Assembly: GCF_002865585.1 (NCBI RefSeq)
Contig: NZ_CP025581.1
Location: forward strand, 1,364,001-1,428,000
Direction: 5' to 3'
DNA: 64,000 nucleotides
Source of the DNA: Nocardioides houyundeii
Lineage (GTDB): Bacteria > Actinomycetota > Actinomycetes > Propionibacteriales > Nocardioidaceae
Shown here in pieces: positions 22,481 to 57,239 of this stretch. Made by a program: the position numbers and the translations under genes. The notes beneath the pieces are model-generated. The model was not told the DNA's origin. It saw only the letters and a list, made by a program, of their open reading frames with translations, and ran no database searches. The first letter of the stretch is position 1; each line of letters starts with the position of its first letter.

Positions 22481-23028
22481 GTGAACAGCATCGAGGTCGT
22501 GGTGGGACGGATCGGCAAGCCGCATGGCGTTCGGGGCGAGGTGACGATCGACGTCCGGACCGACGAGCCGGAGCGCAGGTTCGCCCCCGGGGCGGTGCTC
22601 AGGGCGGTGCCCCCGAGGGGGCGTCGTCGCAGCTGAAGGCCCTGACGGTCCGGTCCACCAGATGGCACCAGCAGGTGCTGCTGGTGAGCTTCGAGGAGGC
22701 GGGTGACCGCAACGCCGCCGAGGCCGTGCGCGGCACCGTGCTGCACGCCGAGCTCCCGGTCGACGCCGTCCCCGAGGACCCCGAGGAGTTCTACGACCAC
22801 CAGCTCGCGGGCCTCTCGGCGTACGACCTGGACGGGCGTCTGCTCGGCACGGTCAAGGGGCTGGTCCACGGGGCGGCGCAGGACCTGGTCACCGTGCTGA
22901 CCCCTGACGGACGCGAGGCCCTGGTGCCGTTCGTGAAGGAGCTGGTGCCGGAGGTCGACGTCCCGGGCGGCCGGCTGGTGGTCGCGGACCGGCCCGGTCT
23001 GGTCAGCCCCTTCCCCGACGAGGCCTGA
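22481..23028 (+). CDS. rimM: Ribosome maturation factor RimM, reading frame broken once as sequenced
   Basis: RimM helps mature the 3' domain of the 30S subunit. The GTG at 22481 gives the correct N terminus ([19 protein letters not shown]), but this frame stops at 22636. The rest of RimM ([24 protein letters not shown] to the PRC-barrel end VSPFPDEA) continues in the frame one base earlier to 23028. The switch falls at C5 (22610-22614) and G5 (22617-22621). One extra C or G there restores a normal 182-residue RimM. I judge a missing base in the sequence more likely than a pseudogene or programmed -1 frameshift. trmD follows after 3 bp. Confidence 0.85.
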
Positions 23029-23031
23029 TCG

Positions 23032-24189
23032 GTGCGCATCGACATCTTCTCGATCTTCCCCGACTACCTCAGTCCCCTGGAGCTGAGCCTGGCCGGCAAG
23101 GCCCGGCAGTCCGGGCTGCTGCAGATCGAGGTCCACGACCTGCGTGCCTGGACCCACGACCGGCACCGCACCGTCGACGACACCCCCTACGGCGGCGGTG
23201 CCGGGATGGTGATGAAGCCGGAGCCCTGGGGCGAGGCGCTGGAGCACGTGGCCGCCGATGGCAGGCCTACCTTCGTCTTCACCACTCCCAGCGGCACCCC
23301 GTTCACCCAGGGGCTGGCCCGGGAGCTGGCCGCCTCGGAGCACCTCGTCTTCGCCTGCGGGCGCTACGAGGGGATCGACCAGCGGGTCCTCGACCACGCC
23401 GCCACGCTCGGCGAGGTCCGCGAGATCTCCCTGGGCGACTACGTGCTGAACGGGGGAGAGGTCGCCGCGCTGGCCATCACCGAGGCCGTGGTGCGCCTGC
23501 TGCCGGGGTTCATGGGCAACCCCGAGTCGCTGGTGGAGGAGTCCCACGAGGACGGTCTGCTGGAGTACCCGGTCTACACCAAGCCCCAGTCCTGGCGCGG
23601 TCTGGAGGTGCCCGCGGTGCTGCTGTCGGGCAACCACGCCGCGATCGCTGCGTGGCGGCGCAGCGAGGCGGTACGGCGTACCGCCCGCCGGCGGCCCGAC
23701 CTGCTGCACGCCAGCACGGTGGTCGACGGCTGGGAGATCGTGGCGGCCCGGCCCAGCGACGCCCCGGAGCTCCTCACCCTGCAGCTCGCCTGCTGGGTGA
23801 CCGAGGCGATCGCCAACGACGACCTGGGCATCCCGCCCCTGCACGAGGGGCTCGGCGACGTGCAGGCCTCGCTGGCCTCCTGGGACACCTACGTCGTCCG
23901 CTCGGCGGGGCGGCTGGTCGGCTCGGTGCGCGGGCGACTCGCCGGGACCGAGTGGGAGATGGGGCGGCTGATGGTCGCTCCCGACCTGCGTGGCCGGGGG
24001 CTGGGACGCCTGCTCCTGGAGCACGCCGAGGCGGTCGCTCCCGCCGAGGCGCTCTCGGCCCGCCTCCTCACGGGCAGGTCGAGCCTGGACAACCTGCGCC
24101 GCTACCGCAGGGCCGGCTTCGCCGTCGCCGAAGTCGGAGACGGCCGGTCGGGTCCGGTGGTGCTCACCAAGCGGATTTCCCGGCCCTGA
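23032..24189 (+). CDS. trmD: tRNA (guanine(37)-N1)-methyltransferase TrmD fused to a GNAT acetyltransferase domain
   Basis: Residues 1 to about 230 are a complete Trm[40 protein letters not shown] and [11 protein letters not shown] form its trefoil-knot SAM site. It methylates G37 of tRNAs and prevents +1 frameshifts. From about residue 237 to 385 a second domain begins [13 protein letters not shown] and holds the acetyl-CoA loop [16 protein letters not shown] (about 313), the GNAT motif A. TrmD alone is about 230-250 residues, so this is a fusion in one frame. The acetyl acceptor is unknown. GTG start, 3 bp after rimM. Confidence 0.93.
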
Positions 24190-24193
24190 TCGT

Positions 24194-24281
24194 CCTGTGG
24201 CAGACTTGGCAGCTGGCCAGTCGGTCGAAAGGTGGCCCCGGTAGTTCACGCGGGGGACCTGTGCCGGGCCCCTGCCACAGG
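24194..24281 (+). promoter_or_regulatory. rplS leader: promoter core and long-range inverted repeat
   Basis: CCTGTGGCAG (24194-24203) and CTGCCACAGG (24272-24281) are perfect inverted repeats 68 bp apart in the rplS upstream region. The left arm overlaps the TGGCAGACTTG element shared with rpsP (24198-24208). If transcription starts at that element, the left arm would not be in the RNA and the repeat would act at the DNA level. Confidence 0.4.
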
Positions 24282-24394
24282 GGGAGCCCGACACCGCCGA
24301 CCACCCGTTCGCCCGACCGGGCGACACGCTGGCCTGCACTCCTAATCGATCACACACACACCGCGGCTGACCTGTGGCACTCGCGAGGAGCATC

Positions 24395-24745
24395 ATGACC
24401 AATGTCATTGCCGAGCTCGGCAACGCCCAGAAGCGCGACGACGTCCCGGACTTCCGCGCCGGCGACACCATCAAGGTCCACGTGAAGGTCATCGAGGGCA
24501 GCCGCTCCCGTGTGCAGGTCTTCCAGGGCGTCGTGATCAAGGTGCAGGGCTCCGGCGTGGGGCGCACCTTCACCGTCCGCAAGGTCTCCTTCAGCGTCGG
24601 CGTCGAGCGCACCTTCCCGCTGAACTCGCCGATCTTCGAGAAGATCGAGGTCGTCACCCGCGGTGACGTGCGTCGCGCCAAGCTCTACTACCTGCGCAAC
24701 CTGCGCGGCAAGAAGGCGAAGATCAAGGAGCGCCGCGAGGCCTGA
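24395..24745 (+). CDS. rplS: 50S ribosomal protein L19 (bL19)
   Basis: The 116-residue protein is a complete L19 ([41 protein letters not shown], then [11 protein letters not shown]), a large-subunit protein at the interface with the 30S. The ATG at 24395 has GAGGAG 5 nt upstream. It is 205 bp after trmD, a gap containing its own leader with a promoter-like element. The order trmD-rplS-lepB-rnhB is the actinobacterial standard. Confidence 0.97.
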
Positions 24746-24770
24746 GCGGCCCCGCCGACCAGCCCTGGAT

Positions 24771-24776
24771 TAGTCT
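24771..24776 (+). promoter_or_regulatory. -10 element of lepB, leaderless type
   Basis: TAGTCT ends 6 nt before the lepB GTG start, so the message probably begins at the start codon. Confidence 0.5.
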
Positions 24777-24782
24777 CTGCTC

Positions 24783-25565
24783 GTGACTTCTGAAGACCGC
24801 GACCTAGCCTCCGCCACCCCCAGTGCGGACGGGTCGCGGTCTTCGTCGTCTCGGGGTCGGCGGCAGCGCAAGCACCTGCCGCTGTGGCAGGAGACGTTCC
24901 TGCTCCTGGGGGTCGCCCTGGTCCTGGCGATCATCGTCAAGTCCTTCCTCGTCCAGGCCTTCTACATCCCCTCGGAGTCGATGGAGCCGGGTCTGGTGAA
25001 CCGGGATCGCATCCTGGTCCAGAAGGTCTCCTACTGGGGTGGGGGCAGCCCGGAGCGCGGGGACGTGGTGGTCTTCAAGGACCCCGGGTCCTGGCTTCGC
25101 GGCGTGGAGGAGGCGGACAACCTCGTGGTCAAGGGGATGACCAAGATCGGGCTGTACCCCTCCGGTGGTCATCTGGTCAAGCGCGTGATCGGGGTCGCGG
25201 GCGACGTCATCACCTGCTGCGACGACCAGGGGCGGCTCGCCGTCAACGGCGAGCCCCTGGACGAGGACGCCTACGTCAAGGACGACCCACTGACCCAGTG
25301 CAACGGGCCGATGGTGCCCAACTGCGACTGGGAGGCCGGGCCGGTGCCCGAGGGACACATCTTCGTGATGGGGGACAACCGTGGTCGGTCCGCGGACTCG
25401 TCGGAGAAGATGTGCCGCAAGAACGAGACCGACTGCGTCCCGGGACGGGAGTTCGTCCCGGTCGACCTGGTGGTGGGCAAGGTCTTCGTCCTGATCTGGC
25501 CCTGGAGCCACTTCCGCTGGGTGACCCGCCCGGACTCCTTCGCGGACGTGCCCGACGCTGGCTGA
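24783..25565 (+). CDS. lepB: Signal peptidase I
   Basis: LepB removes signal peptides from secreted proteins at the outer face of the membrane. The 260-residue protein has a cytoplasmic Ser/Arg-rich start, one membrane helix (about 38-58), the catalytic serine in PSESMEP (about residue 64) and the general-base lysine in HLVKRVIGV (about 131), and the C-terminal GDNRGRSADS box. A cysteine-bearing insertion of about 40 residues sits between the catalytic boxes. It is followed by rnhB after 10 bp. Confidence 0.96.
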   Translation: MTSEDRDLASATPSADGSRSSSSRGRRQRKHLPLWQETFLLLGVALVLAIIVKSFLVQAFYIPSESMEPGLVNRDRILVQKVSYWGGGSPERGDVVVFKDPGSWLRGVEEADNLVVKGMTKIGLYPSGGHLVKRVIGVAGDVITCCDDQGRLAVNGEPLDEDAYVKDDPLTQCNGPMVPNCDWEAGPVPEGHIFVMGDNRGRSADSSEKMCRKNETDCVPGREFVPVDLVVGKVFVLIWPWSHFRWVTRPDSFADVPDAG

Positions 25566-25575
25566 GGGATCGCCC

Positions 25576-26295
25576 GTGCCCGGACTGCCCCGCGGAGTCA
25601 CCGTGCGTCGCGACGCCGGCCTCTACGGCTACGAGCGCGCCCTGCGCCGGGCCGGGATCGACCCCGTCGCGGGCGTGGACGAAGCCGGTCGCGGGGCGTG
25701 CGCCGGCCCCCTGGTGGCGGCCGCCTGCATCCTGCCCGCGGGTCGCGCGGGCATCGTCCCGGGCCTGGCGGACTCCAAGCTGCTGACCGAGAGGGCGCGA
25801 GAGGCCTGCTACGAGCAGGTGCTGCGTCGGGCCGTGTCCTGGTCGGTGGTGGTCGTCGACAACCAGGAGTGCGACCGCCTCGGGATGCACGTCGCCAACG
25901 TCGAGGCGCTGCGCCGGGCGGTGGCCCTCCTGGACATCCGTCCGGCCTACGTGCTCACCGACGGGTTCCCGGTCGACGGCCTGCACGTGCCCGGGCTGGC
26001 CATGTGGAAGGGGGACCGGGTCGCGGCGTGCATCTCCGCCGCCTCGGTGCTGGCCAAGGTGACCCGCGACCGACTGATGCGAGAGCTCGACAGCCAGTGG
26101 CCGGCGTACGACTTCAAGACGCACAAGGGCTACATCACCGACGTCCATGCCGCGGCGCTGACCGAGCACGGGCCGTGCCCGGTGCACCGGATGCGGTTCG
26201 TCAACGTCCGCCGTGCCGCCGGGCTCGAACCGCCCGCGAGGAGTCCCGGCGAAACCTGCACCGAGTACGACGGGGAGACTAGTGTCGAGACGTAG
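25576..26295 (+). CDS. rnhB: Ribonuclease HII
   Basis: RNase HII incises RNA-DNA hybrids and misincorporated ribonucleotides. The 239-residue protein has the DEAGRG catalytic motif at about residues 35-40, the LADSKLL block, the downstream acidic LTDGF, and the conserved KGDRVAACISAASVLAKVTRD region. The GTG start is 10 bp after lepB. The C-terminal tail after the HRMRFVNV block is Glu/Thr rich and not conserved. Confidence 0.95.
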   Translation: MPGLPRGVTVRRDAGLYGYERALRRAGIDPVAGVDEAGRGACAGPLVAAACILPAGRAGIVPGLADSKLLTERAREACYEQVLRRAVSWSVVVVDNQECDRLGMHVANVEALRRAVALLDIRPAYVLTDGFPVDGLHVPGLAMWKGDRVAACISAASVLAKVTRDRLMRELDSQWPAYDFKTHKGYITDVHAAALTEHGPCPVHRMRFVNVRRAAGLEPPARSPGETCTEYDGETSVET

Positions 26296-26315
26296 CCAGC
26301 CATGAGGGAGTGACG

Positions 26316-26624
26316 ATGAGCGCCGAGGATCTCGAGAAGTACGAGACCGAGATGGAGCTCACCCTCTACCGGGAGTACCGCGACGTCGTCTCGATCTTCA
26401 AGTACGTGGTGGAGACCGACCGTCGCTTCTACCTGTGCAACCAGGTGGACGTGAAGGCGCGGACCGAGAACGGCGACGTCTTCTTCGAGGTGTCGATGAG
26501 CGATGCCTGGGTGTGGGACATGTACCGGCCTGCACGCTTCGCCAAGAACGTGAAGGTGCTGACGTTCAAGGACGTCAACGTCGAGGAGCTCAGCCAGCAG
26601 GACATCGATCCGCCCAAGGAGTAG
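26316..26624 (+). CDS. DUF2469 family protein
   Basis: This 102-residue acidic protein (SAEDLEKYETEMELTLYREY) is a member of the actinobacterial DUF2469 family, typically found between rnhB and the YraN-type nuclease gene, as here. No function is established. The family pattern of aromatic residues (FKYVVETDRRFYLCNQVDV) is intact. The ATG at 26316 is preceded by GAGGGAG at 26304-26310; a GTG at 26310 in the same frame is inside that Shine-Dalgarno and unlikely. Confidence 0.9.
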   Translation: MSAEDLEKYETEMELTLYREYRDVVSIFKYVVETDRRFYLCNQVDVKARTENGDVFFEVSMSDAWVWDMYRPARFAKNVKVLTFKDVNVEELSQQDIDPPKE

Positions 26625-26654
26625 CGGGTCGCCGGGCCGTGGGTGGGCCGCGGC

Positions 26655-26690
26655 GTATCCACAGCCGCCGGACGACGGGCTCTGTCCACA
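26655..26690 (+). promoter_or_regulatory. Two DnaA-box-like sequences before the YraN-like gene
   Basis: GTATCCACA (26655-26663) and CTGTCCACA (26682-26690) each match 8 of 9 bases of the DnaA consensus TT(A/G)TCCACA, in the same orientation 27 bp apart. They lie in the gap between the DUF2469 and YraN-like genes. Confidence 0.3.
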
Positions 26691-26757
26691 GGGTCCCGTC
26701 CGCCGTGGACCGGGCCGACGCGGCTGTCGGCAGGCTGTGGGCCATGGAGACGTGGCA

Positions 26758-27123
26758 GTGACGACGGCAGCGCACAAGCAGGCGCTGGGGGCGTACGGCG
26801 AAGAGCTGGCGGCGCGACATCTGGTCCGGGCCGGCATGGTGGTGCTGGACCGCAACTGGCGCTGCGCGGCCGGTGAGATCGACCTGGTGCTGCGTGACGC
26901 GCAGACCCTGGTGGTGTGCGAGGTCAAGACCCGCACCGACGACCGGTTCGGCAGCCCCCACGAGGCGATCACCCCGGTCAAGCTGCGCCGGTTGCGGGCA
27001 CTGGCGGCGACCTGGCTGGTGGCGCACCAGGCGCACCCGCAGGAGGTCCGCATCGACCTCGTGGCCATCCTCCGGCCGCGCCGCGGGCCTTCGGTCCTGG
27101 ACCACGTCAGGGGCATCGGCTGA
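26758..27123 (+). CDS. UPF0102 (YraN) family nuclease-like protein
   Basis: The 121-residue protein has the PD-(D/E)XK-like UPF0102 pattern: LGAYGEELAARHL, GEIDLVLRD and VVCEVKTR. The family is predicted to be a Holliday-junction-resolvase-like nuclease; its activity is not established. The GTG at 26758 is used because GGAGA (26746-26750) lies 7 nt upstream. Its stop TGA (27121-27123) overlaps the ATG of the next gene by 1 base, indicating coupling to the comM-dprA pair. Confidence 0.88.
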   Translation: MTTAAHKQALGAYGEELAARHLVRAGMVVLDRNWRCAAGEIDLVLRDAQTLVVCEVKTRTDDRFGSPHEAITPVKLRRLRALAATWLVAHQAHPQEVRIDLVAILRPRRGPSVLDHVRGIG

Positions 27124-28703
27124 TGCTGGCCACCGCGCACACCATCGCGCTGCAGGGCTCGACCGGACACCTGATCGAGGTGCAGGTCGACATCTCGCCC
27201 GGGGTGGTGGGGGCGACCATCGTGGGGCGTCCCGACGCCTCGCTGATGGAGGCCCGGGACCGGGTCCGCATGGCGATCACCCATGCGGCACCGCGCTGGC
27301 CCTCCACCCGGCGGGTGACGATCCTGCTGTCTCCCGCGGACCTGCCCAAACGGGGCACCCACTTCGACCTGGCGATCGCCATGGGCATCAAGGCGGCCGA
27401 CGCCGGGGTGCCGCGCGAGGCGCTGCGCGACACCGTCTTCCTCGGCGAGCTGGCGCTGGACGGCGGCCTGCGCCCGGTGCCCGGCGTGCTGCCGATGGTG
27501 ATGGCCGCGGCGGCGCGCGGGTTCGGCCGGGTCTTCGTGCCCGAGCCGCAGGCGGCCGAGGCGGCGCTGGTGCCCGGCATCGAGGTGTACGGCGTGCGGT
27601 CGCTGACCCAGGTGGTGGCCCAGCTCTGCGGGGAGATCGTGCCCGTGGCCGCGCCAGTGACCGAGCTCAGGGCGGCCAGCACGCTGTCGTGGCGCGGCCA
27701 GGACCGGCGCGAGGAGGTCGACATGCTCGACCTGGTGGGCCTCAGCGATGCCAAGTACGCCGTCGAGGTCGCGGCGGCAGGCGGCCACCATGTGCTGCTT
27801 TCGGGCCCCAAGGGGTCGGGCAAGACGAGCTTGGCGGAGCGGATCCCGACGATCCTGCCGGACCTCACCCGCGAGGAGGCCCTGGAGCTGACGGCCGTGT
27901 GGTCGCTGTCCGGCCCCATCGAGTCCGCCACCGGCGTCCTGGTGCGCCCGCCCTTCAGCGCCCCGCACCACGACGCCTCGAAGGCCAGCATCCTCGGCGG
28001 CGGGACCGGACGTGTCCGTCCCGGCGAGCTGAGCCGGGCGCACTGCGGTGTGCTGTTCCTCGACGAGTTCCCACTGTTCCGATCCGACGTCATCGAGGCG
28101 CTCCGGCAGCCCCTGGAGAGCGGGGAGGTCCGCGTGGTGCGCGGGGACGACGCAGCCACCTTCCCCGCCGGGGGCATGGTGGTGCTGGCCGCCAACCCCT
28201 GCCCCTGTGGGGAGTTCCATCCCTCCGCCGGTCTCGACAGGTGCGAGTGCCCGGAGGTGGCGCGCCGCGAGTACCGCCGGAAGGTCTCGGGGCCCATCTC
28301 CGACCGGATCGACATCGTGCGCCACGTGCTCCCGGCTCAGCCCCACGAGCGCGACCCCTTCGCCCCGCGTGAGGGATCGCCGGAGATCCGGGGGCGGGTG
28401 ACGCGTGCACGCCTGCGCCAGCATCAGCGGTACGCGGGACTCGGGTGGCGGCTCAACGCCCAGGCTCCGGGCCACCTGCTGCGCGAGCGGTGGCCGCTCC
28501 CGGACGCCGAGCAGCACCGGGTCGACGACGAGGTGTACGCCGGCCGGCTGAGCAGGCGGGGCGCCATCCGGGTCCACCGCCTCGCGTGGTCGGTGGCGGA
28601 CCTCGCCGCGGTGGACGAGCCGGGGGAGCGCGAGGTGGAGACCGCGCTGCGACTTCGTACCGGCGAGCCGCTGCGCTCCAGCGACCTGGGGCGGGTCGGA
28701 TGA
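27123..28703 (+). CDS. YifB/ComM family Mg chelatase-like AAA ATPase
   Basis: The 526-residue protein has the ComM layout: an N-terminal Lon-protease-like fold (about 1-190: GLP-like SPADLPKRGTHFDLAIA), the AAA core with Walker A GPKGSGKTS (about 228), Walker B (VLFLDEF), the ANPCPCGEF cysteine pair and a C-terminal Mg-chelatase helical domain. ComM is a branch-migration helicase promoting integration of donor DNA in transformable bacteria. It overlaps its neighbours on both sides (1 and 4 bp), giving YraN-ComM-DprA as a coupled unit. Confidence 0.93.
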   Translation: MLATAHTIALQGSTGHLIEVQVDISPGVVGATIVGRPDASLMEARDRVRMAITHAAPRWPSTRRVTILLSPADLPKRGTHFDLAIAMGIKAADAGVPREALRDTVFLGELALDGGLRPVPGVLPMVMAAAARGFGRVFVPEPQAAEAALVPGIEVYGVRSLTQVVAQLCGEIVPVAAPVTELRAASTLSWRGQDRREEVDMLDLVGLSDAKYAVEVAAAGGHHVLLSGPKGSGKTSLAERIPTILPDLTREEALELTAVWSLSGPIESATGVLVRPPFSAPHHDASKASILGGGTGRVRPGELSRAHCGVLFLDEFPLFRSDVIEALRQPLESGEVRVVRGDDAATFPAGGMVVLAANPCPCGEFHPSAGLDRCECPEVARREYRRKVSGPISDRIDIVRHVLPAQPHERDPFAPREGSPEIRGRVTRARLRQHQRYAGLGWRLNAQAPGHLLRERWPLPDAEQHRVDDEVYAGRLSRRGAIRVHRLAWSVADLAAVDEPGEREVETALRLRTGEPLRSSDLGRVG

Positions 28704-29833
28704 GCGTCACCGAGGAGGAGCGTCTGGCCAGGGCAGCGCTGAGCCGGCTCGCCGAGCCGGGAGACCCACGGCTGACCGGTCTGGTCAGCGAGATCGGCGC
28801 TGTCACCGTGCGCGACCACCTGCAGGCCGAGCGTGACCTCCACGGACTCCGCACCGACGTGGCGGAGCGTCTGGAGGCCCTGGACCCGGCCGCGGACCTG
28901 GAGCGCGCCGACAGGCTCGGTGTCCGGTTCGTGGTGCCTGGTGACCCGGAGTGGCCTGAGGGGCTGGACGAGCTCGCGCACGCTGGCGCGGTCGCCAACC
29001 GGGGCGGAGTGCCCGTCGGGCTGTGGCTGCGCGGGCACGCCCGGCTCGACACCGTGGCCTCGGGCGTGGCGGTGGTGGGGTGCCGGTCCTCCACCACCTA
29101 CGGGGACTCCACGGCGGGGGAGATCGCGGCGATGGCGGCCCGGGCGGGACTCAGCGTCGTGTCCGGGGCCGCGTTCGGCATAGACCAGGCCGCGCACCGG
29201 GGAGCCCTCGCGATGCAGGGGAGCACAGTCGCCGTGCTGGCCTGCGGGGCGGACCGGCACTATCCCGCGGCCCATCGCAGGCTGATCGACCACATCGCCG
29301 ACGTCGGCCTCGTGGTCTCCGAGGCTGCGCCCGGCTGTGCGCCCCTGCGGGTGCGGTTCCTGGCACGCAACCGCCTCGTGGCTGCCCTGGCCCGCGGCAC
29401 GGTGGTGGTCGAGGCGGCGGTCCGCAGTGGCGCGTTGAGCACCGCGCACTGGACGACGAGGCTGAACCGGCCGCTCATGGGCGTCCCCGGTCCGGTGACC
29501 AGCGCGCAGTCCCAGGGGGTGCACGAGAAGCTGCGCAGTGGAGAGGCGACGCTGGTGACCGGGGGCGAGGACGTGCTGGAGATCCTGGGACGTCCCGGAG
29601 ACCACCTGCGCGAGGAGCCCCGGGGGCCGGTCCGGGTCCGCGACGGTCTGGGACTACGGGCCCAGCAGGTGCTGGACGCGGTGCCAGTCACCCGGGGAGC
29701 AGCCGTGGACAGCATCGCCCGCTCCGCCGGCATCGGGCTGCGGGAGGTGCACTCGACGCTGGTGACCCTGGCGAGCCAGGGACTGGTGGTCCACGACTCC
29801 CGGGGCTGGCGGCTGGGGGACACGGCACGCTGA
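28700..29833 (+). CDS. dprA: DNA processing protein DprA
   Basis: DprA protects incoming single-stranded DNA and loads RecA. The 377-residue protein holds an N-terminal SAM-like region, the Rossmann-fold core ([14 protein letters not shown], then [21 protein letters not shown]) and a C-terminal winged-helix segment (about 310-377). The ATG overlaps the comM-like stop (ATGA). No other competence genes are visible here, so a role in natural transformation in this organism is an inference. Confidence 0.95.
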
Positions 29834-29859
29834 ACCGGGGCGTCCGGCGCCAGACTGTC

Positions 29860-29865
29860 TACGAT
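29860..29865 (+). promoter_or_regulatory. -10 element of xerC, leaderless type
   Basis: TACGAT ends 6 nt before the xerC ATG at 29872. Confidence 0.5.
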
Positions 29866-29871
29866 CGGCTC

Positions 29872-30825
29872 ATGACTGCCGAGGAGGACGGGGCTGCCGC
29901 GGCGCCCGAGCTGCTCCCGGAGCCCCTGGCCCGGGTCCTGGCCGACTACGAGCGGCACCTCGTCGCCGAGCGCGACCTGACGCCCAACACGGTCCGCGCC
30001 TACCTCAAGGACGTGGCCGGCATGCTGGAGCACGTCCACCGGCTCGGCCACGTGGACGTCAGCGGCCTGGACCTGCGAGCGCTGCGCAGCTGGCTGGCCA
30101 AGCAACAGAGTCTCGGAAGGTCTCGCACGACGCTGGCGCGACGTGCCAGCGCGGTGCGGGTGTTCACCAGGTGGCTGGCCCGCACCGACCGCACCCCCCA
30201 GGACGCGGGGGCCTCGCTGCTCTCTCCGAAGCTGGCCAGGACGTTGCCCCCGGTCCTGCGTGCCGACGAGGCGACGGACCTCATCGCCGCAGCCGCGGCG
30301 CGGATGGAGGACGGCGGACCGGTGGCGCTGCGGGACGTGGCGATCCTGGAGATCCTCTACGCCACCGGGATCCGGGTGGGCGAGCTCGCCGGCCTGGACC
30401 TGGACGACGTCGACGACGACCGGCAGGTGCTGCGGGTCTTCGGCAAGGGACGCAAGGAGCGCACCGTCCCCTTCGGTCGACCGGCGGCCGTCGCCCTTGC
30501 CTCGTGGCGGCTCCAGGGCCGCCCTCGCCTGGTGGTGCCGGGCTCCGGTCCCGCGCTGTTCCTGGGTGCCCGCGGCGGGCGGGTGGACGCGCGCATCGTG
30601 CGCGAGATGGTGCACCGGCGCCTGGCCGAGGTGCCCGGGGCTCCCGACATGGGGCCGCACGGGCTGCGGCACACCGCGGCGACCCACCTACTCGAGGGTG
30701 GTGCGGACCTCCGGTCCGTGCAGGAGCTCCTGGGCCATGCCTCGCTGTCGACCACCCAGCTCTACACCCACGTCTCCACGGATCGGCTGCGCCGGGCCTA
30801 TCGACAGGCTCATCCGCGCGCGTGA
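29872..30825 (+). CDS. xerC: Tyrosine recombinase XerC
   Basis: XerC, with XerD, resolves chromosome dimers at dif. The 317-residue protein carries an N-terminal core-binding domain with [13 protein letters not shown], and all catalytic residues: R168 (ATGIRVGEL), K192 (GKGRKERTV), H263 and R266 ([10 protein letters not shown]), H289 (LGHASLST) and Y298 (LYTHV). Its location after dprA is the usual one, so it is the housekeeping recombinase rather than an integrase of a mobile element. The ATG at 29872 is close after TACGAT. Confidence 0.95.
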
Positions 30826-30839
30826 GCGGTCCGGCTCAC
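30822..30839. terminator. Convergent stem-loop between xerC and the M23-type gene
   Basis: GTGAGC (30822-30827) pairs with GCTCAC (30834-30839), a 6-bp stem over a 6-nt loop. It is built around the xerC stop codon and abuts the stop of the opposing gene. Confidence 0.35.
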
Positions 30840-30840
30840 C

Positions 30841-31365
30841 TCACCGGCGCCACAGCGGCAGCAGCCTGACCGGGACGTCCTCGCCCACCAGCCGGAGCGG
30901 GTCGAGGTAGACCTTGCCCCGCCGCCATCCCCAGTGCAGGCACGCGGCGGGGTAGCAGTGCGAGAACGGCACGACCAGCCAGCCCACGCGCTCACCTGCC
31001 CGCACCACGTCTCCGGGGCGCACCGAGGCGGCCACCGGCTCGTAGGTGGTCCTCGTCTCGCCGTGGTCCACCACGACGACCCGCTTGCCGCCGATCGAGC
31101 CGGCGAAGCTCACCCGCCCGGGCAGCGCCGCCCGGACCGGCTGGGCCGGGCTGCCCAGCAGGTCCACTCCCCGGTGCCCCGAGCCGTAGACCAGCTCCGG
31201 CGGGTCGAACGCCCTGACCAGCGCAGGCTCCGGAGCCAGAGGCCACGTGCCCACCGGATCGGCGGCGGCGGGCAGAGCGGCCCGTGCCCCACCGGCACCG
31301 GGGTGCGGGGTCACGGCCACCAGGATCGCAGCGACGAGGATGACGAGACGGATTCGCACCATCAA
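30841..31365 (-). CDS. Secreted M23-type (LytM-like) peptidase homologue with altered active site
   Basis: The 174-residue protein has a signal peptide (hydrophobic core VILVAAILVAV) and a LytM-like domain. GHRGVDLLG holds the first zinc ligands (HxxxD). The second motif, normally HxH, reads CLHWG, so a cysteine replaces the first of those histidines. That position is the catalytic base in LytM, so the protein may be inactive, or use cysteine, or regulate another hydrolase. I recall similar variants in actinobacteria, so the change is probably lineage-wide. It faces rpsB across a 401-bp gap and converges with xerC. Confidence 0.85.
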   Translation of the reverse strand: MMVRIRLVILVAAILVAVTPHPGAGGARAALPAAADPVGTWPLAPEPALVRAFDPPELVYGSGHRGVDLLGSPAQPVRAALPGRVSFAGSIGGKRVVVVDHGETRTTYEPVAASVRPGDVVRAGERVGWLVVPFSHCYPAACLHWGWRRGKVYLDPLRLVGEDVPVRLLPLWRR

Positions 31366-31766
31366 GCCAGCCTTGAGCAGGACGCGGCACCGGGCGGGCG
31401 GCGTTGCCCGGGACTGTGGAACAACCCTGGAGATGGACGCAGAAACCGTCGGTGTGCACGTGCGGCGGCCCGGGCGCTGCGATTTCCCCGGGCGTGGCGA
31501 GGTGGCCTACTCTGTCAGGAGCAGCTCACCCGAGCTGACTTCGCACGCTTGCAGACCACGCCGGAGTCGTCTTCCTAGACTCCGACCACCCGTGGGCGAC
31601 GATCCTCGGTTCCAGCTCCCGCAAGGGAAGTGGATGGGATCGCGCGTGAGCGTCAGGGCCTGCGGCACCCGCCGCCGGCAGCAAACCGCAAACATGCAGG
31701 AGCCACCAGGCTCCCCGCTCCTCGGAGCCGGGGTCTCGGAGCTCCGCACTGAACATGGAGATCCAC
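31366..31766. other. Intergenic region between the M23-type gene and rpsB
   Basis: This 401-bp stretch separates divergent genes and must hold the rpsB promoter and leader. I see no protein gene. GC-rich hairpin sequence is present just before rpsB (around 31705-31745), including GGCTCC/GGAGCC arms. A TAGACT at 31576-31581 is a possible -10 but lacks a well-spaced -35. A ribosomal-protein S2 leader structure is possible but I cannot define it. Confidence 0.5.
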
Positions 31767-32768: not shown

Positions 32769-32816
32769 CGTCCGCGTCAGTCCTCCGACTACCCCCAGAA
32801 CTCAAGGAAGTAGAAC

Positions 32817-33632: not shown

Positions 33633-33637
33633 CCTGA

Positions 33638-33643
33638 GTAGGG
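33638..33643 (+). promoter_or_regulatory. Candidate -10 element between tsf and pyrH
   Basis: TAGGGT lies just after the tsf stop and about 109 bp before the pyrH start. It would give pyrH a leadered transcript in addition to read-through from rpsB-tsf. Confidence 0.3.
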
Positions 33644-34468: not shown

Positions 34469-34524
34469 GCCCTCTGCGCCACCTCCCACAGCACCACGAC
34501 GACGCATCCCGAGAGTAGGCAGCC

Positions 34525-36463: not shown

Positions 36464-37599
36464 ATGCCTGATGACCAGATCGAGTCCCCCGTCTCCTGCC
36501 CCTCGTCTTCGACGAGCCGCGCGGGCGCAAGAAGCCGCCCCGCCACCTGGCCGACCTGGACGAGGACGGCCGCAAGGAGCTGCTGACCTCGCTGGGTCTC
36601 CCGGGCTTCCGGGCCAGGCAGCTCTCCACCCACTACTTCGGCAGGCTGGTCGACGACCCGGCCCTGATGACTGACCTTCCGGCGCTGCAGCGCGACGAGC
36701 TGGTGGCCGCGCTGCTCCCGCCGCTGATGACCGCGCTGCGCACCCAGGAGGCGGACAAGGGCGCGACCCGCAAGACGCTGTGGAAGCTGTTCGACGGTGC
36801 GCTGGTGGAGTCGGTGCTGATGCGCTACCCGGACCGGGCCACGGTGTGCGTGTCCAGCCAGGCCGGGTGCGGCATGGCGTGTCCTTTCTGCGCGACCGGT
36901 CAGGGCGGGCTGCAGCGCAACATGTCCACCGCCGAGATCGTGGAGCAGGTGGTCGCCGCGGCGCGCAGCCTGGCTCGCGACGAGGTCCCCGGTGGCGTCG
37001 GCCGGGTCTCCAACGTGGTCTTCATGGGCATGGGGGAGCCGCTGGCCAACTACAAGGCCGTGATCGGCGCGGTACGACGGCTGACTGACCCGTCGCCGGC
37101 GGGCCTGGGCATGAGCGCGCGGGGCATCACCGTGTCGACCGTGGGCCTGGTGCCGCGGATCAACCAGCTCGCCCAGGAGGGCATCCCCGTCACCCTGGCA
37201 CTGTCGCTGCACGCCCCCGACGACGAGCTGCGCAACGAGCTGGTGCCGATCAACACCCGCTTCTCGGTCGCGCAGACCGTCGAGGCGGCCTGGAACTACG
37301 CCCGCACCACCAAGCGGCGGGTCTCCATCGAGTACGCCATGATGCGCGGCATCAACGACCAGGGGCATCGTGCCGACCTGCTCGGCGACGTGCTGAACTC
37401 CTACGGGGACTGGGGCTGGGTGCACGTCAACCTGATTCCCCTCAACCCGACGCCCGGGTCCAAGTGGACCGCCTCGGACCCCCGCGACGAGCGGGAGTTC
37501 GTCCGTCGGCTGGAGGCCAAGGGCATCCCGACCACGGTGCGCGACACCCGGGGGCGGGAGATCGACGGCGCCTGCGGGCAGCTGGCCGCCTCCGAGTGA
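36464..37599 (+). CDS. rlmN: 23S rRNA/tRNA adenine-C2 methyltransferase RlmN, frame broken near the N terminus as sequenced
   Basis: RlmN is a radical-SAM enzyme that methylates C2 of A2503 in 23S rRNA and A37 in tRNA. The CxxxCxxC cluster motif is in [11 protein letters not shown], and the second conserved Cys near the C terminus (DGACGQLA) is present. Conserved N-terminal sequence ([21 protein letters not shown]) is read in a frame that has no start codon. The likely start, ATG 36464, is one frame away. The switch point is a C5 run at 36486-36490; adding one C joins them into a normal 378-residue protein. Without repair the only in-frame ATG is 36667, which would lose the N-terminal domain. 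Confidence 0.88.
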
Positions 37600-38720: not shown

Positions 38721-39588
38721 TCAGAAGGCCTGGGCCGTCACCTGCGCGAACAGCTCCTGCTCGTCCACCTCGAGCCCGCGGGCACGGAACCAGGTGCAGA
38801 TGTTGGTGCAGTCGCGGAGCAGGAAGTCCAGCCCTGGGCGTTGCCCGCCAGGTCCACCACCTGCGGGAGGTCGATCACCACCAGCCGGTCGCCCGCAGCC
38901 AGGATGTTGTAGGCGGACAGGTCGCCGTGCGCCACCCCGGCAACGGCGAGCGTCGTCACCACGCCCACCAGCTGCTCGTAGTAGTGCGCCAGCAGTGGCG
39001 ACGGCGGCCGGGTCTGGGCGAGGCGCGGAGCCGTCTCGCCGTCGTGGGTGATCCACTCCATCAGGATCTCGGTGCCGTGGATCTGCACGGGATAGGGGAC
39101 CGGCACGCCCAGCTCCCACAGTTGCTTCAGCGCAGTCCATTCCGCCGCCGCCCACTCACCGGCTGCCACGGCCCGTCCCCAGGTGGACTTGCGCTTGAGT
39201 GCCCTGGTGTCCCGCGACCGCTTCGTGGCCCGGCCCTCGGCGTAGTCGGCGGCGCGGTGGAAGGTGCGATGAGTGGTGTCGCGGTAGCGCTTGGCGGCCA
39301 TCACGACCCCTGCCCGGGGCTCGTGCGGGTCGGCGCGCTCGAGGAGGAAGACGTCTGCCTCCTTCCCCGTCTTGAGGATGCCGAGCTCGGTGTCGACAGC
39401 CCCTGCGAGGTCACGACCCAGTCGGGCCGTGGCTCGGGACCGCGCATGAGGGGTTCCACGTCGAGCCAGGTGGACCAGCGCTGCGCCGGGTCCCGCAGCT
39501 CGTCGTAGGCGTGGAAGTCGAAGACGAAGCGGGGGTCGAGGTCGCGGGAAGGGTCTCGATCAGGTGTCTCTGGGAACTGCAGTGGCAT
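38721..39588 (-). CDS. RIO-family serine kinase, frame broken twice as sequenced
   Basis: RIO kinases are ancient atypical kinases; the role of bacterial members is unclear. Three overlapping frames together form a complete protein. The first (ATG 39588, GGAG upstream) covers FDFHAYDEL to WVVTSQG. The second covers ILKTGKEADVFLLERA, HGDLSAYNIL (catalytic loop) and IDLPQVVDLAGNAQG. The third covers DFLLRDCTNICTWFRARGL to the stop. The junctions lie at a C4 run (39400-39403) and a C3 run (38832-38834), read on the plus strand. One added base at each gives a 289-residue RIO protein. I favour missing bases in the sequence over gene decay, because every segment is conserved. Confidence 0.78.
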
Positions 39589-47101: not shown

Positions 47102-47122
47102 GGGCTGTCGGGGACGGCGAAG

Positions 47123-47128
47123 TAACCT
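47123..47128 (+). promoter_or_regulatory. -10 element of ispG, leaderless type
   Basis: TAACCT ends 7 nt before the ispG ATG at 47136. Confidence 0.5.
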
Positions 47129-47135
47129 TGCAGTC

Positions 47136-48287: not shown

Positions 48288-48312
48288 CTGCCGGCGGTGG
48301 CACTGCTCGGAC

Positions 48313-48318
48313 TAGGCT
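48313..48318 (+). promoter_or_regulatory. -10 element of the GNAT gene, leaderless type
   Basis: TAGGCT ends 7 nt before the GTG at 48326. Confidence 0.5.
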
Positions 48319-48325
48319 CGCGGCC

Positions 48326-49168: not shown

Positions 49169-49205
49169 GGGCACGTCCGGTTCGTCGCACGCCTCGACGC
49201 GCCAG

Positions 49206-49211
49206 TAGCCT
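49206..49211 (+). promoter_or_regulatory. -10 element of proS, leaderless type
   Basis: TAGCCT ends 7 nt before the proS ATG at 49219. Confidence 0.5.
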
Positions 49212-49218
49212 GACCCCC

Positions 49219-50988: not shown

Positions 50989-51061
50989 CGGGATTGTTGC
51001 GGGTTTACGCACTGCAAGAACATGCAGGCGACAAGCCGTTACTCCGGTCGGTTCTCTGCTG

Positions 51062-51212
51062 CATACTCATGTCAGTGAAGTGATCCTCGACCCAGGTTGA
51101 ACTCCACGACGGACTGCTGCTGACCAGTCCACCAGGGCCCGCTGGCTCGGCTTTCTGGGGAAGATCTCGGGACTTCCCCAAGGAGTCGAGACCGCGGGCC
51201 TTCGGGCTTTTC
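51062..51212 (+). ncRNA. Candidate structured RNA or 3' region after proS
   Basis: A possible promoter (TTACTC 51039-51044, CATACT 51062-51067, 17-bp spacing) precedes a region with two stem-loops: an 8-bp stem (51156-51163 with 51173-51180) and a short UUCG-capped GC stem around 51196-51207 followed by CTTTT. The end fits an intrinsic terminator on the plus strand. It may be a small RNA or only the proS 3' end. Confidence 0.28.
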
Positions 51213-51242
51213 CGGGCCCCTGTCCTCGCGCGAGTGCTGCGC

Positions 51243-51689
51243 CTACAGCTCGTCGGCCCCGGGGAACGACGCGGGTCGAGCGCCCCAGGCAAGCTCGGCC
51301 AGGGCGGTCTCGCCCAGGGCGCTGATGGCCCAGCGGCGCAACCGGCCCTCGCTCTGGCTCACCAGCTGGGCGTAGGCCCCCGCGCACTGCTGCTCGAGCT
51401 CGAGTCCGGCCGCCCCCACCGCGGCCGGCGACCCGAGGGCGGGCAGGTGGTAGGCACTCGCGGCGGGAGTCGGCTCGACGCCTCGCCGCCGCAGGGCCGA
51501 GGCCACGTCGTCGCGCCGTTCCCGGTGCACGGCGTACCGGGCGGTGATCAGGCCGTGCCGCGCAGGCTCGGCGGTCAACGACGTCTGGCCGCCCAGCAGG
51601 CCATAGAGCTGGACGGCGGCGTGCTCCAGGCTCAGCACCGCCTGCAGGGCGCTCGAGGTCGCCCCCGAGGTCGTCTCCGAGGTTGTCAT
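51243..51689 (-). CDS. Ferritin-like DUF4439-type protein
   Basis: The 148-residue protein is helical and Ala/Leu-rich. It contains EHAAVQLYGLLGG near the N terminus, then a His-containing RYAVHRERRDDV stretch and a C-terminal LELEQQCAGAYAQL helix, a pattern of the DUF4439 ferritin-like four-helix bundle. No metal-binding set can be confirmed. The ATG at 51689 overlaps the stop of the upstream lipoprotein gene as ATGA, so the two are translated together. Confidence 0.75.
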   Translation of the reverse strand: MTTSETTSGATSSALQAVLSLEHAAVQLYGLLGGQTSLTAEPARHGLITARYAVHRERRDDVASALRRRGVEPTPAASAYHLPALGSPAAVGAAGLELEQQCAGAYAQLVSQSEGRLRRWAISALGETALAELAWGARPASFPGADEL

Positions 51690-52183
51690 GGACTCACCGT
51701 GGCGGCCGCCGCGCTCGCCAGGTGCTGGTCGACCCCGGCGCTCATGCACGCCAGGACCCGGGCGAACCGGCCACTGCGGGCCTCAGCCGCGCTGGCGCGC
51801 AACCACGCGGCATGCCGGCCCTCGGCCGACTGCATCCGGGTGAGGGCGCGGCGGGGAGCCGGTGGCACCGAGGGCGCCGGGGACGGGCTGGCCGAGGAGG
51901 TGTCCTCGGCCGGGTCCAGCAGTGCCAGGTGGTCGGCGTGCATCAGGTCGAAGGGGCTCAGGGCCGGCGCGAGTGAGGGGTGGACGGCGATGGTGTCGCC
52001 GAGCATCGTCCGCAGCGAGAGCGTCCTGGCCAGGACGGCCGCGAGGAGAGCGGAGTCGGGGTCCGGGGGAGGGGGCTTGGTGCTGGCCGAGCCCTCGACA
52101 TCGCATCCCGTGAGCAGGGCGCCCGCCCCCAGGGCGGCGACGAGCACGGCACGTCTGGACGGGGCGAGCTGATACTCCGACAC
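51686..52183 (-). CDS. Putative lipoprotein, ferritin-like helical domain
   Basis: The 165-residue protein has a signal peptide with a double arginine ([19 protein letters not shown]), ending in the lipobox LLTGC, so Tat- or Sec-dependent export and lipidation on that cysteine are likely. After a Pro-rich linker the mature part is Ala/Leu-rich helical with paired His residues ([11 protein letters not shown]) and a later EGRHAAWL segment. It is coupled to the DUF4439-like gene. The GTG start lies 6 nt after a minus-strand TAGGGT (52190-52195). Confidence 0.7.
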
Positions 52184-52189
52184 CGGACA

Positions 52190-52195
52190 ACCCTA
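52190..52195 (-). promoter_or_regulatory. -10 element of the lipoprotein gene, leaderless type
   Basis: Reads TAGGGT on the minus strand, 6 nt before the GTG at 52183. Confidence 0.5.
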
Positions 52196-52255
52196 CCGAG
52201 CCCCGGACGCTCCACGCGCCAGCGCCCGGACTCTGCCTCGGGGGTCGCTCGGGGC

Positions 52256-52261
52256 TATGGT
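52256..52261 (+). promoter_or_regulatory. Candidate -10 element of the rimP-nusA operon
   Basis: TATGGT lies 32 bp before the rimP ATG, leaving a short leader with the CGGAGG Shine-Dalgarno. Confidence 0.4.
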
Positions 52262-52293
52262 GGGCGCCGACAACAGCACACGGAGGTCGACAC

Positions 52294-52860
52294 ATGAGCC
52301 AGGCCAGGAACGACGCCACTCGGAGCCGCATCGAAGCGGAGATCGCCGGCCCCCTGAGTGCGCTCGGTCTCGACGTCGAGGCTGTCGAGCTCACGCCGGC
52401 AGGCAAGCGCCGCGTGCTCCGCATCGCCGTGGACAAGGACGGCGGGGTGAACCTCGACGACGTGACCGAGGCGACCCGCGAGATCTCCGGGGTTCTCGAC
52501 GACTCCGACGTGATGGGGGAGATGCCCTTCCTCCTCGAGGTGACCTCCCGGGGGGTGGACCGGCCGCTGACGCTGCCGCGGCACTGGCGACGCAACCAGG
52601 ACCGCCTGGTGCGCGTCACCCTCGCCGAGGGCGAGCCCGTCACCGGGCGCATCCAGCAGCACGACGACGAGTCGGTGTCCCTCGAGGTCGAGGGAGCAAC
52701 GGTGCGGATCGCCTACGCCGACATCGCCAAGGCGCTGGTGCAGGTGGAGTTCAACCGCAGGAAGCAGGACGAGGGCCAGGACCCTGACGTGCACGAGGAC
52801 ATGCACGAGGACACGCACGAGGACATGCACGGGGACGAGAACGAGGACGAGGACGACTGA
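52294..52860 (+). CDS. rimP: Ribosome maturation factor RimP with a His/Glu/Asp-rich tail
   Basis: RimP assists 30S assembly. The 188-residue protein has both RimP domains: [20 protein letters not shown] and the SRGVDRPLT block in the first, and a C-terminal SH3-like part. After the conserved end (about residue 155) is an acidic tail containing four [16 protein letters not shown] units encoded by 12-nt repeats at 52792-52839. It has CGGAGG about 7 nt before the ATG. nusA overlaps its stop by 1 bp (TGATG), so the two are coupled. Confidence 0.95.
52792..52839 (+). repeat. 12-nt tandem repeat in rimP (4 units)
   Basis: Units of the form CACGAGGACAYG (the last degenerate) encode His-Glu-Asp-x repeats at the RimP C terminus. 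Confidence 0.8.
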
Positions 52861-53834
52861 TGGACATCGACCTGAGCATCCTGAGGATGCTGGAACGCGA
52901 GAAGGAGATCTCCTTCGACGTGCTCGTCGAGGCGATCGAGCAGGCGCTTCTCACCGCCTACCACAAGACCCCCGGAGCCCAGGAGCGCGCCAGGGTGACG
53001 CTGGACCGGAAGAACGGGCACGTCTCGGTGCTGGCCGCCGAGCTCGATGCCGAGGGCAACGTGGTGGCGGAGTACGAGGACACCCCGGACGGCTTCGGCC
53101 GCATCGCCGCGACCACGGCGAAGCAGATCATGCTGCAACGGCTCCGGGACGCGGAGGACGACCTGCGGTTCGGCGAGTTCGCCGGACGCGAGGGCGACAT
53201 CGTCTCGGGCGTCATCCAGCAGGGACACAACCCCGACGACGTGATGGTCGACCTCGGCAAGCTCGAGGCCGTCCTGCCGGTGAGCGAACGCGTCCCCGGC
53301 GAGGTCTACGCGCACGGCACCCGCATCAAGTGCCTCGTGGTCTCGGTGCGCAAGGGGATGCGGGGCCCACAGATCACCCTGTCCCGGACGCACCCGAGCC
53401 TGGTGAAGAAGCTGTTCGCCCTCGAGGTTCCCGAGATCGCCGACGGCACGGTGGAGATCGCGGCCATCGCGCGCGAAGCGGGACACCGCTCCAAGATCGC
53501 CGTCCACTCCACGGTCGCGGGGGTGAACGCCAAGGGTGCCTGCATCGGGCCGATGGGTCAGCGGGTGCGCAACGTGATGGCGGAGCTGCACGGCGAGAAG
53601 ATCGACATCGTGGACTGGTCGGACGAGCCCGCCGAGTTCGTGGCCCACGCGCTCTCCCCGGCGCGGGTGACCTCGGTGGAGGTGCTGGACGCCGCTGCCC
53701 GTTCCTGCCGTGTCGTGGTCCCGGACTTCCAGCTCTCGCTGGCCATCGGCAAGGAGGGGCAGAACGCCCGCCTGGCGGCTCGGCTGACCGGCTGGCGCAT
53801 CGACATCCGCTCCGACGAGCCCGACGAGGACTGA
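52860..53834 (+). CDS. nusA: Transcription termination/antitermination factor NusA
   Basis: NusA modulates pausing, termination and antitermination on RNA polymerase. The 324-residue protein has the N-terminal RNAP-binding domain ([16 protein letters not shown]), an S1 domain (about 110-180), and two KH domains ([11 protein letters not shown] and [19 protein letters not shown]). It lacks the acidic C-terminal repeats of E. coli NusA, as is usual for actinobacteria. The ATG overlaps the rimP TGA. Confidence 0.97.
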
Positions 53835-53896
53835 GCCTGGTCCCGGCTGCGCGCCCGCGGTGCGCTCCCGGTTCGGAATTACCTGGCAGCACCCGC

Positions 53897-53902
53897 TAAG
53901 GT
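53897..53902 (+). promoter_or_regulatory. -10 element of ylxR, leaderless type
   Basis: TAAGGT ends 7 nt before the GTG at 53910. Confidence 0.5.
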
Positions 53903-53909
53903 TGAGTCA

Positions 53910-54218
53910 GTGGCACGTGCAACGCTCTCCCCAGTCCTCAGCCCCATCAGGACCTGCGTGGGATGCCGGAAGCGGGCCACGAAGAGCGAGTTGTTGCGCG
54001 TGGTGGCAGGCAAGGGGCCAGACGGTCTTCCGGCCGTCGTCCCTGATCCCACCGCCACGTCACCAGGTCGCGGGGCGCACCTGCACCCCACGCCCGAGTG
54101 CTATGAACTCGCGGTGCGACGCCGAGCTTTCACCCGGGCCCTCAGGGTCCGCGAGGGGCTCGCCGCCACACCGCTGGGGGAGTACCTCACCGCTCACCCA
54201 CCAAGATCGACACCATGA
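53910..54218 (+). CDS. YlxR (DUF448) RNA-binding protein
   Basis: The 102-residue protein has the YlxR hallmark RTCVGCRKRATKSELLRVV with the conserved GRGAHLHP stretch. YlxR is a small nucleic-acid-binding protein linked to RNase P and to nusA-infB expression in other bacteria. It lies between nusA and infB, the standard position. The GTG at 53910 lies 7 nt after TAAGGT. Confidence 0.92.
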   Translation: MARATLSPVLSPIRTCVGCRKRATKSELLRVVAGKGPDGLPAVVPDPTATSPGRGAHLHPTPECYELAVRRRAFTRALRVREGLAATPLGEYLTAHPPRSTP

Positions 54219-54236
54219 TCGACACCGTGATCGACC
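54205..54236 (+). repeat. 12-nt direct repeats across the ylxR end and infB leader
   Basis: GATCGACACC occurs at 54205-54214 and 54217-54226, and GATCGACC at 54229-54236, a strict 12-nt period. The ylxR stop is inside the array. Confidence 0.7.
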
Positions 54237-54360
54237 GACCAGAAACTGGAGCAGGCAGCTCATGAGCACTCGATGAGTACTTTCCGATGAGCCAGCACCA
54301 CAACTAACGGTCCGAAAAACATCCCTTCGGGGCTCGGGCCAGAAGGAGCAGCGTTCTAAC

Positions 54361-57239
54361 GTGGCCAAGACCCGAGTCCACGAACTCGCCAAGGAGTTCG
54401 GAGTCGAGAGCAAGTTCGTTCTCGAGAAGCTGAAGGAGATGGGGGAGTTCGTCAAGTCGGCATCGTCGACCGTCGAGCCCCCTGTCGAGATGCGCTTCAA
54501 GAAGCAGTACGGCGCCGAGCTGAAGAGCTCCGCGTCCTCAGCCCCGGCAGCGGAGCAGACCGCGGCGGCACCTGCCGCCAAGCCCGGCCCCAAGCCCGCG
54601 CCCCGTCCCGTGGAGACCGCACCGGTCGTCCAGGACGTCGCGCCCGTCGTCGAGGCAGCCGCTCCAGCGGCCGCCCCCGCAGCTGCGCCCGCCGCCGCTG
54701 AGGCGCCGTCCCCGGCCCCCGCCCGCCCGGGTCCCAAGCCCGGTCCCAAGGCCAAGCCGACCCCGGAGCCGAAGCCGGAGCCGGAGCCGCAGGCTCCCGT
54801 CGCGCCCGAAGCCCCGACCGCCGAGGCGCCCGCCGCGGCAGCGCCGAAGGCCGCGTCCCCGGCTGCGCCGAAGGCTCCCACGCCCGCTCCGCGGCCCGTG
54901 GGCAAGCCCGGTGCGCCTCGCCCCGGCAACAACCCGTTCGCCCCGAGCCAGGGCATGGGCCGCCGTCCGGCTGCTCCTGCCGCGCCCGCCGCGGCGCCCG
55001 GCGACGAGCAGCGTCCCCCGAGGCCGCCGGCCTCCCGCGAAGGCGGTGCCCCCGCGGCCCGTCCCGGGATGCCGCGACCCAACCCGGCGATGATGCCCAA
55101 GTCCCCCTCATCCTTCGGTCGTGGCCCCGGTGGCCCCGGCGGCGGTCCTGGTGGACCGGGCGGACGCGGTGGTGCCCCGGGCGTCCCGGCGCCCCGTCCC
55201 GTGGTGGAGCCCCGGGCCGTCCCGGTGCCGGTGCGCCTGCAGGCGGCCGTCCCGGTGGCTTCGGTCCGCCGGCCAGCGGCCGTCCGGGCCAGCGCCCGGG
55301 CCAGCGTGGCCAGACCCAGGGTGCCTTCGGGCGTCCCGGTGGTCCGTCGCGTCGCGGCCGCAAGTCCAAGCGCGCCCGTCGCCAGGAGTTCGAGGCCATG
55401 GAGGCCCCGACCATCGGCGGCGTGCGCGTCCGCAAGGGCAACGGGGAGACCGTCCGTCTCCCCCGCGGTGCCTCGCTGACCGACTTCGCCGAGCGCATCA
55501 ACGTCGACGCAGCAGCTCTGGTGCAGATGCTCTTCTCGCTGGGCGAGATGGTCACCGCCACCCAGTCCGTGGGTGACGAGACCTTCGAGCTGATCGGCGA
55601 GGAGCTCAACTACGTCGTCCAGATCGTCTCTCCCGAGGACGAGGACCGCGAGCTGCTGGAGTCCTTCGACCTGGAGTTCGGCTCCGACGAGGGCGACGAG
55701 TCCGACCTGGTCATCCGACCGCCGGTCGTCACCGTCATGGGTCACGTCGACCACGGAAAGACCAAGCTCCTCGACGCGCTGCGCAACGCCAACGTCGTCG
55801 CCAAGGAGGCCGGTGGCATCACCCAGCACATCGGTGCCTACCAGGTCCACACCGAGGTCGACGGCGTCGACCGCCGGATCACCTTCATCGACACCCCCGG
55901 TCACGAGGCGTTCACCGCCATGCGTGCCCGTGGTGCGCAGGCCACCGACATCGCGATCCTCGTGGTCGCGGCGGACGACGGCGTCATGCCCCAGACGGTC
56001 GAGGCGCTCAACCACGCCAAGGCTGCCGGAGTGCCGGTCGTGGTCGCGGTCAACAAGATCGACAAGCCGGACGCGGACCCGACCAAGGTCCGTGGCCAGC
56101 TGACCGAGTACGGCCTCATCCCCGAGGAGTACGGCGGCGACTCGATGTTCGTCGACGTCTCGGCCAAGTCCGGGCTCAACCTGGACAAGCTCCTGGAGGC
56201 GGTCGTGCTGACCGCCGACGCGTCCCTGGACCTGCGGGCCAACCCCACCCAGGACGCCCAGGGCCTCGTGGTCGAGGCGCACCTGGACCGCGGTCGCGGC
56301 CCGGTCGCCACGGTGCTGGTCCAGCGCGGCACCCTGCGGGTCGGCGACTCGATCGTGGCCGGTCCGGCACACGGCCGGGTCCGGGCCATGCTCGACGAGT
56401 TCGGCAACGAGATCACCGAGGCAGACCCGGCACGTCCGGCGATGGTCCTCGGCCTCAGTGCCGTGCCGGGTGCGGGTCAGAACTTCATCGTGGTCGACGA
56501 CGACCGCATGGCCCGCCAGATCGCCGAGAAGCGCGAGGCGCGCGAGCGTGCGGCCATGCAGGCCAAGCGTCGCGTCCGTCGTACCCTCGAGGACTTCATG
56601 GCCTCCATGGAGAAGGGCGAGAGCCAGGAGCTCAACCTCATCCTCAAGGGTGACGTGTCCGGCTCGGTCGAGGCCCTCGAGGACTCGCTGGCCCAGATCG
56701 ACGTCGGCGACGAGGTCACCCTGCGGGTCATCGACCGCGGTGTCGGTGCGATCACCGAGACCAACGTCGACCTGGCCGCTGCGTCCGACGCCATCATCAT
56801 CGGCTTCAACGTCCGGCCCCAGGGCAAGGCGGCTCAGATGGCCGACAAGGAAGGTGTCGAGATTCGCTACTACTCGGTCATCTACCAGGCGATCGAGGAG
56901 ATCGAGGCGGCGCTCAAGGGCCTGCTCAAGCCGGAGTACGAAGAGGCCGTCCTGGGTCAGGCGGAGATCCGCGAGATCTTCCGCTCCTCCAAGGCGGGCA
57001 ACATCGCCGGCTGCATGGTCACCTCGGGGACCGTCCGCCGCAACGCCAAGGTGCGCATCCTGCGCGACGGCAAGACCGTGGCTGACAACCTCGACCTGGC
57101 CTCGCTCAAGCGGGAGAAGGACGACGCCTCCGAGGTCCGCGAGGGCTTCGAGTGTGGTCTGGTGCTCAAGAACTTCCAGGACATCAAGATCGGCGATGTC
57201 GTGGAGTCCTTCGAGATGCGCGAGATCCCGCGCTCCTGA
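54361..57239 (+). CDS. infB: Translation initiation factor IF-2, frame broken once as sequenced
   Basis: IF-2 is the GTPase that places initiator tRNA on the ribosome. The GTG start (54361) gives the N-domain [23 protein letters not shown] and a long Pro/Ala/Gly-rich linker. Then, around 55177-55184, the linker (GRPG repeats) shifts to another frame, in which [15 protein letters not shown], the G1 motif [14 protein letters not shown], the G3 region [15 protein letters not shown] and all C-terminal domains are read to 57239. The expected repeat there reads GGGCCGTCCC elsewhere in the linker, but GGGCGTCCC here. One added base yields a 959-residue IF-2 of normal size. Because infB is essential, a missing base in the sequence is the likely cause. 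Confidence 0.9.

Follow-up and report, generated by a model that had tools for sequence, protein, structure and literature searches.

The window analyzed here, a 64-kb stretch of DNA, covers positions 1364001-1428000 of a single-contig genome of 3,840,802 bases (G000:C1) with a G+C content of about 71%. It was aligned in six frames by tblastn, with genes called in 11 genomes of the same genus as queries; the queries were limited to called genes because antisense frames blurred a position-wise map. These alignments, combined with checks by hand, locate five frame breaks in four conserved genes (rimM, rlmN, infB and, twice, the gene of a RIO-domain kinase), all five being one base short, as the first-pass annotation had proposed. 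Scans for tRNAs and Rfam families across the 64-kb window returned nothing. The genes and their breaks are as follows:

22481..23028, plus strand: rimM (ribosome maturation factor), starting in frame 2 and continuing in frame 1
22607..22621, plus strand: break in rimM, placed from the frameshift-aware alignment, the sequence and the run table
36464..37599, plus strand: rlmN, ATG in frame 2, remainder in frame 1
36485..36491, plus strand: break in rlmN, at a run of five C (36486-36490), placed by hand with N-termini compared
38721..39588, minus strand: RIO-domain serine kinase, in three frames with two breaks
39398..39405, minus strand: first break in the RIO kinase, at four G on the gene strand (39400-39403)
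38832..38839, minus strand: second break in the RIO kinase, at three G on the gene strand (38832-38834)
54361..57239, plus strand: infB (IF-2), frame 1 then frame 3
55175..55186, plus strand: break in infB, at CCCC adjoining GGG, placed by hand

In rimM, frame 2 gives way to frame 1 near 22609-22621, as seen with the genes of 11/11 genomes. The break holds five C (22610-22614) and five G (22617-22621), either of which may be the short run. Homologue P0241 (192 aa), on which the Pfam RimM domain was found, is a near-identical, continuous RimM encoded on a 500,715-base contig and differs from the two pieces in the window at a few residues, while the RimM of the window genome itself is represented in the protein set by a 114-aa fragment (P0243). 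A RimM match is present in 144 of 147 genomes of the genus and, by our reading of the tables, runs uninterrupted over the site in 142 of the 143 others, the single exception being G034. Five RimM rows in this genus-wide search carry a stop inside the match.

The rlmN gene breaks close to its start. Its ATG (36464) is in frame 2; the conserved protein is encoded in frame 1, which is open from 36475, and the alignment of the relatives' RlmN proteins starts at 36475-36496. Read from its opening at 36475, frame 1 offers no ATG, GTG or TTG ahead of 36667. RlmN also finds a match in 144/147 genus genomes, a search that cannot discriminate broken from intact genes because the break site is too close to the start.

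The RIO-domain kinase switches frame near 39400 and again near 38831-38846, each switch being seen with the genes of 8 genomes. Its closest comparison is P0001, a 289-aa protein with a Pfam RIO1 domain from a Nocardioides houyundeii record (751,430-base contig), which is a single open frame through both break sites. Aligned in three pieces, the window kinase and P0001 are identical at 284 of 289 residues (98%): 63/63 residues match before the first site, 5 differences fall between the sites, and the remainder after the second site is identical. Since P0001 and P0241 both differ from the window at a few residues, they belong to other strains and show the frames to be open in very close relatives, which is no proof for the DNA of this isolate. 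RIO kinase matches occur in 129 of 147 genus genomes, and 127 of the 128 others are uninterrupted over both sites (reading of tables); the exception is G018, where the match is limited to residues 242-288 (G018:C11:406989-407129) and the gene is truncated or broken. The kinase is thus common, not universal, in the genus, with 18/147 genomes lacking a match. G017 carries the region twice, on contigs C4 and C8 with equal match scores, which probably reflects a duplicated assembly, the listed contamination of this genome being 9%.

The infB gene starts in frame 1 at 54361 and continues in frame 3 after about 55185. Both parts are spanned as one protein by P0121 (952 aa), which carries the Pfam IF2_N and IF-2 domains, and P0122 is likewise continuous. 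Among named loci, the closest infB is that of Nocardioides daejeonensis (90%), and the infB matches in plasmid records are all distant. The first-pass annotation had argued that infB cannot be lost, so that at least this break must be an error or an unusual decoding event. The gene is indeed broken, but the argument is weaker than it was taken to be, since a start at the in-frame ATG at 55398 would leave a product of 613 residues that keeps the G domain and the C-terminal part.

The search was extended to the window plus the adjoining 400 kb, that is, 464 kb, of which 236 kb lie under homologues. It returned 25 break clusters, every one of them (25/25) one base short, as the first-pass annotation had noted for its five sites; 16 clusters were seen with genes from two or more genomes, the other 9 with genes from one genome. 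Once cluster 202646, a weak duplicate of the one next to it, is set aside, 24 distinct breaks remain. The identical search in three control genomes found 2 clusters over 90 kb in G002 (1 contig), 4 over 187 kb in G012 (1 contig) and 6 over 229 kb in G003 (2 contigs). Of these clusters, 10/12 derive from a single genome's genes and 9/12 have the opposite sign, so the method is able to detect both signs. Close to the contig start the break rate is lower than in the 464-kb stretch: 2 breaks in 56 kb under homologues, each seen with a single query, compared with none in 50 kb of G002. With this region included, about 664 kb of the 3.84 Mb were sampled for breaks.

The automatic search overlooked rlmN and infB, both of which were checked by hand. 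A separate search for unaligned homologue ends, limited to window genes having homologues in the set, flagged rimM, the RIO kinase and infB, together with 1-468, 10131-13277 and 30739-31389; rlmN was unflagged, so short terminal breaks can escape this search. The feature at 1-468 is cut by the window edge, and that at 30739-31389 is a variable C-terminus. Identity at 10131-13277 is 47%.

The breaks fall in genes irrespective of essentiality, 24 over the 464 kb and 2 at the contig start. Among the genes affected are dnaE, murE, pnp, ctaD, qcrC, metF and lgt, together with gltB, which is hit twice, and dnaN; for lgt, gltB and dnaN the evidence comes from one relative each. Above the curated NCBIfam cut-offs, the intact relatives of broken genes are named as polynucleotide phosphorylase, cytochrome aa3 subunit I, QcrC, a MacS-type histidine kinase, MetF, MurE, DNA polymerase III alpha, Lgt, the glutamate synthase large subunit (with two breaks) and, close to the contig start, DNA polymerase III beta. 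Pfam adds KdpC and a DUF1206 protein, and several others are transporters or unnamed. Flank identity at the breaks is high (88% and 85% on the two sides in dnaE, 92% and 88% in pnp), and dnaN is one base short at G000:C1:2464-2467 (L217). A free-living actinomycete should need dnaE, dnaN, murE and infB. The breaks in dnaE, murE, pnp and dnaN make a better argument than infB for a fault in the sequence.

Break positions were set by frameshift-aware alignment for 24 breaks, and rlmN and infB, added by hand, bring the total to 26. With two bases of slack, all 24 aligned breaks touch a G/C run of at least three bases, 22/24 one of at least four and 11/24 one of at least five, whereas random gene draws subjected to the same tests gave means of 11.0, 3.4 and 0.9. 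None of 2000 random draws was as high as observed, the maximum for runs of at least four being 10. Thus the location at or beside G/C runs noted for the initial five sites extends to the larger set, in which 2/24 placed breaks touch no G/C run of four. Of the 26 runs at the breaks, 2 have 3 bases, 12 have 4 and 12 have 5. Taking the inferred length as the run plus one, the share of runs that are broken is 2/1890 at length 4, 12/536 at length 5, 12/75 at length 6 and 0/4 at length 7, a climb from 0.1% to 16% between lengths 4 and 6. The longest run near each break was taken, which biases the counts toward long runs; the trend is steep despite this choice. G/C-run depletion in the assembly, looked for against G002, G012 and G003, was not found, runs of 4-6 being more frequent instead, so depletion provides no evidence for an artefact. 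Per Mb, the window genome has 2170 runs of five and 319 of six, compared with 1472-1737 and 138-162 in the three relatives, so that runs of six are about twice as frequent in it.

We interpret the breaks as errors of the deposited sequence caused by systematic homopolymer undercalling, an ordinary assembly artefact, with a probability of about 97%. In the proposed mechanism, short G/C homopolymers would be read one base short at the sequencing or consensus step, with a chance of error that would increase with run length; intact genes of the organism would in consequence look frameshifted. This is the systematic loss of homopolymer bases that had been suggested from five sites, and it is now borne out by the uniform sign, the G/C context, the length dependence, the spread along the sampled genome, the essential genes hit, and the intact relatives and near-identical intact copies. 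The cause would be technical, most likely a long-read consensus made without accurate short-read polishing. Against this reading stand the abundance of G/C runs of 4-6 in the assembly, the four runs of seven that are all unbroken, the lower break rate close to the contig start and the two placed breaks that touch no run of four. PMC8812927 names indels in homopolymers as the chief error left in long-read-only bacterial assemblies, and in PMC12007338 the most frequent deletion errors of one such assembly are false deletions that follow runs of four to five. The errors described in both sources resemble the present ones in being one-base deletions at short homopolymers, numbering hundreds per genome and frameshifting conserved genes. 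They differ in that all placed runs here are G/C, as expected at 71% GC, whereas A/T runs dominate in the example of PMC12007338.

The first-pass annotation had also raised, as less likely, that programmed -1 frameshifting by the ribosome might be frequent on GGG/CCC codons, so that a correctly sequenced genome would still make full proteins. Every shift does have a sign that -1 frameshifting could repair, as in programmed frameshifting of the X XXY YYZ type, where the same direction would restore the frame, and the infB break holds an in-frame heptamer, C CCG GGC. However, infB is the sole site of 26 with an in-frame X XXY YYZ heptamer, against 63/5000 random gene positions. At the infB break, the one site folded, the 80 bases that follow fold no better than shuffles (z -0.21). 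Moreover, the rimM and RIO breaks are without conservation, being absent from nearly all of the other matching genomes (142/143 and 127/128 uninterrupted), and the continuous P0001 and P0241 also speak against such recoding. The proposal is therefore not supported, and we consider it scarcely credible. A broader version takes the sequence as correct and has the strain read several hundred genes that are one base short, dnaE, dnaN and infB among them, through efficient -1 recoding at short G/C runs, either on the ribosome or in transcription; it is equally hard to credit, as is a narrower form confined to infB, in which C CCG GGC would give two forms of IF-2.

A biological origin could also be sought in real and recent deletions, in a strain that has accumulated many slippage mutations and pseudogenes, possibly rescued by transcriptional slippage. 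Slippage in the cell would also fit the homopolymer context and the length dependence, yet it would leave dnaE, dnaN, murE, pnp and infB damaged together, which a free-living cell should not survive, and the absence of insertions (0/25 clusters) argues against real slippage deletions. G/C runs of 3-5 bases would be short for efficient slippage, and rescue by transcriptional slippage would need a long homopolymer, of about 8 bases or more; the runs at the breaks, at 3-5 bases, lie below this threshold. Transcriptional slippage as proposed for long homopolymers in endosymbionts (PMC3017870) shares the homopolymer-based loss of frame in conserved genes, but the present case concerns a free-living genus, a 3.84-Mb genome and G/C runs of 3-5. 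Real deletions are accordingly very improbable, although not quite to the degree of programmed frameshifting. An artefact of alignment or gene calling, with the sequence itself unbroken, would be in keeping with the two of five sites overlooked by the automatic method and with the few single-genome events in the relatives. It is contradicted by identities of at least 90% on either side of breaks in different frames, and the alignment of the RIO kinase with P0001 refutes it; the rimM and rlmN breaks, moreover, can be read by eye. We regard its probability as practically nil.

Undercalling of homopolymers in the assembly would have consequences for the use of this genome. Although deposited as complete, it would hold many false pseudogenes, and claims of gene loss or recoding drawn from it need read support. 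Simple scaling from 26 breaks in 236 kb of covered coding sequence leads us to expect a few hundred breaks genome-wide. Sign bias, run-length dependence and relatives as controls can tell such an artefact from real recoding without reads. A literature search for Nocardioides complete genomes with frameshift and PacBio found no paper. In the single-contig genome G034, RimM is split at a GGGG run (G034:C1:1259838-1260397, L237), elsewhere than in the window genome, which is probably an error of this type in a further assembly.
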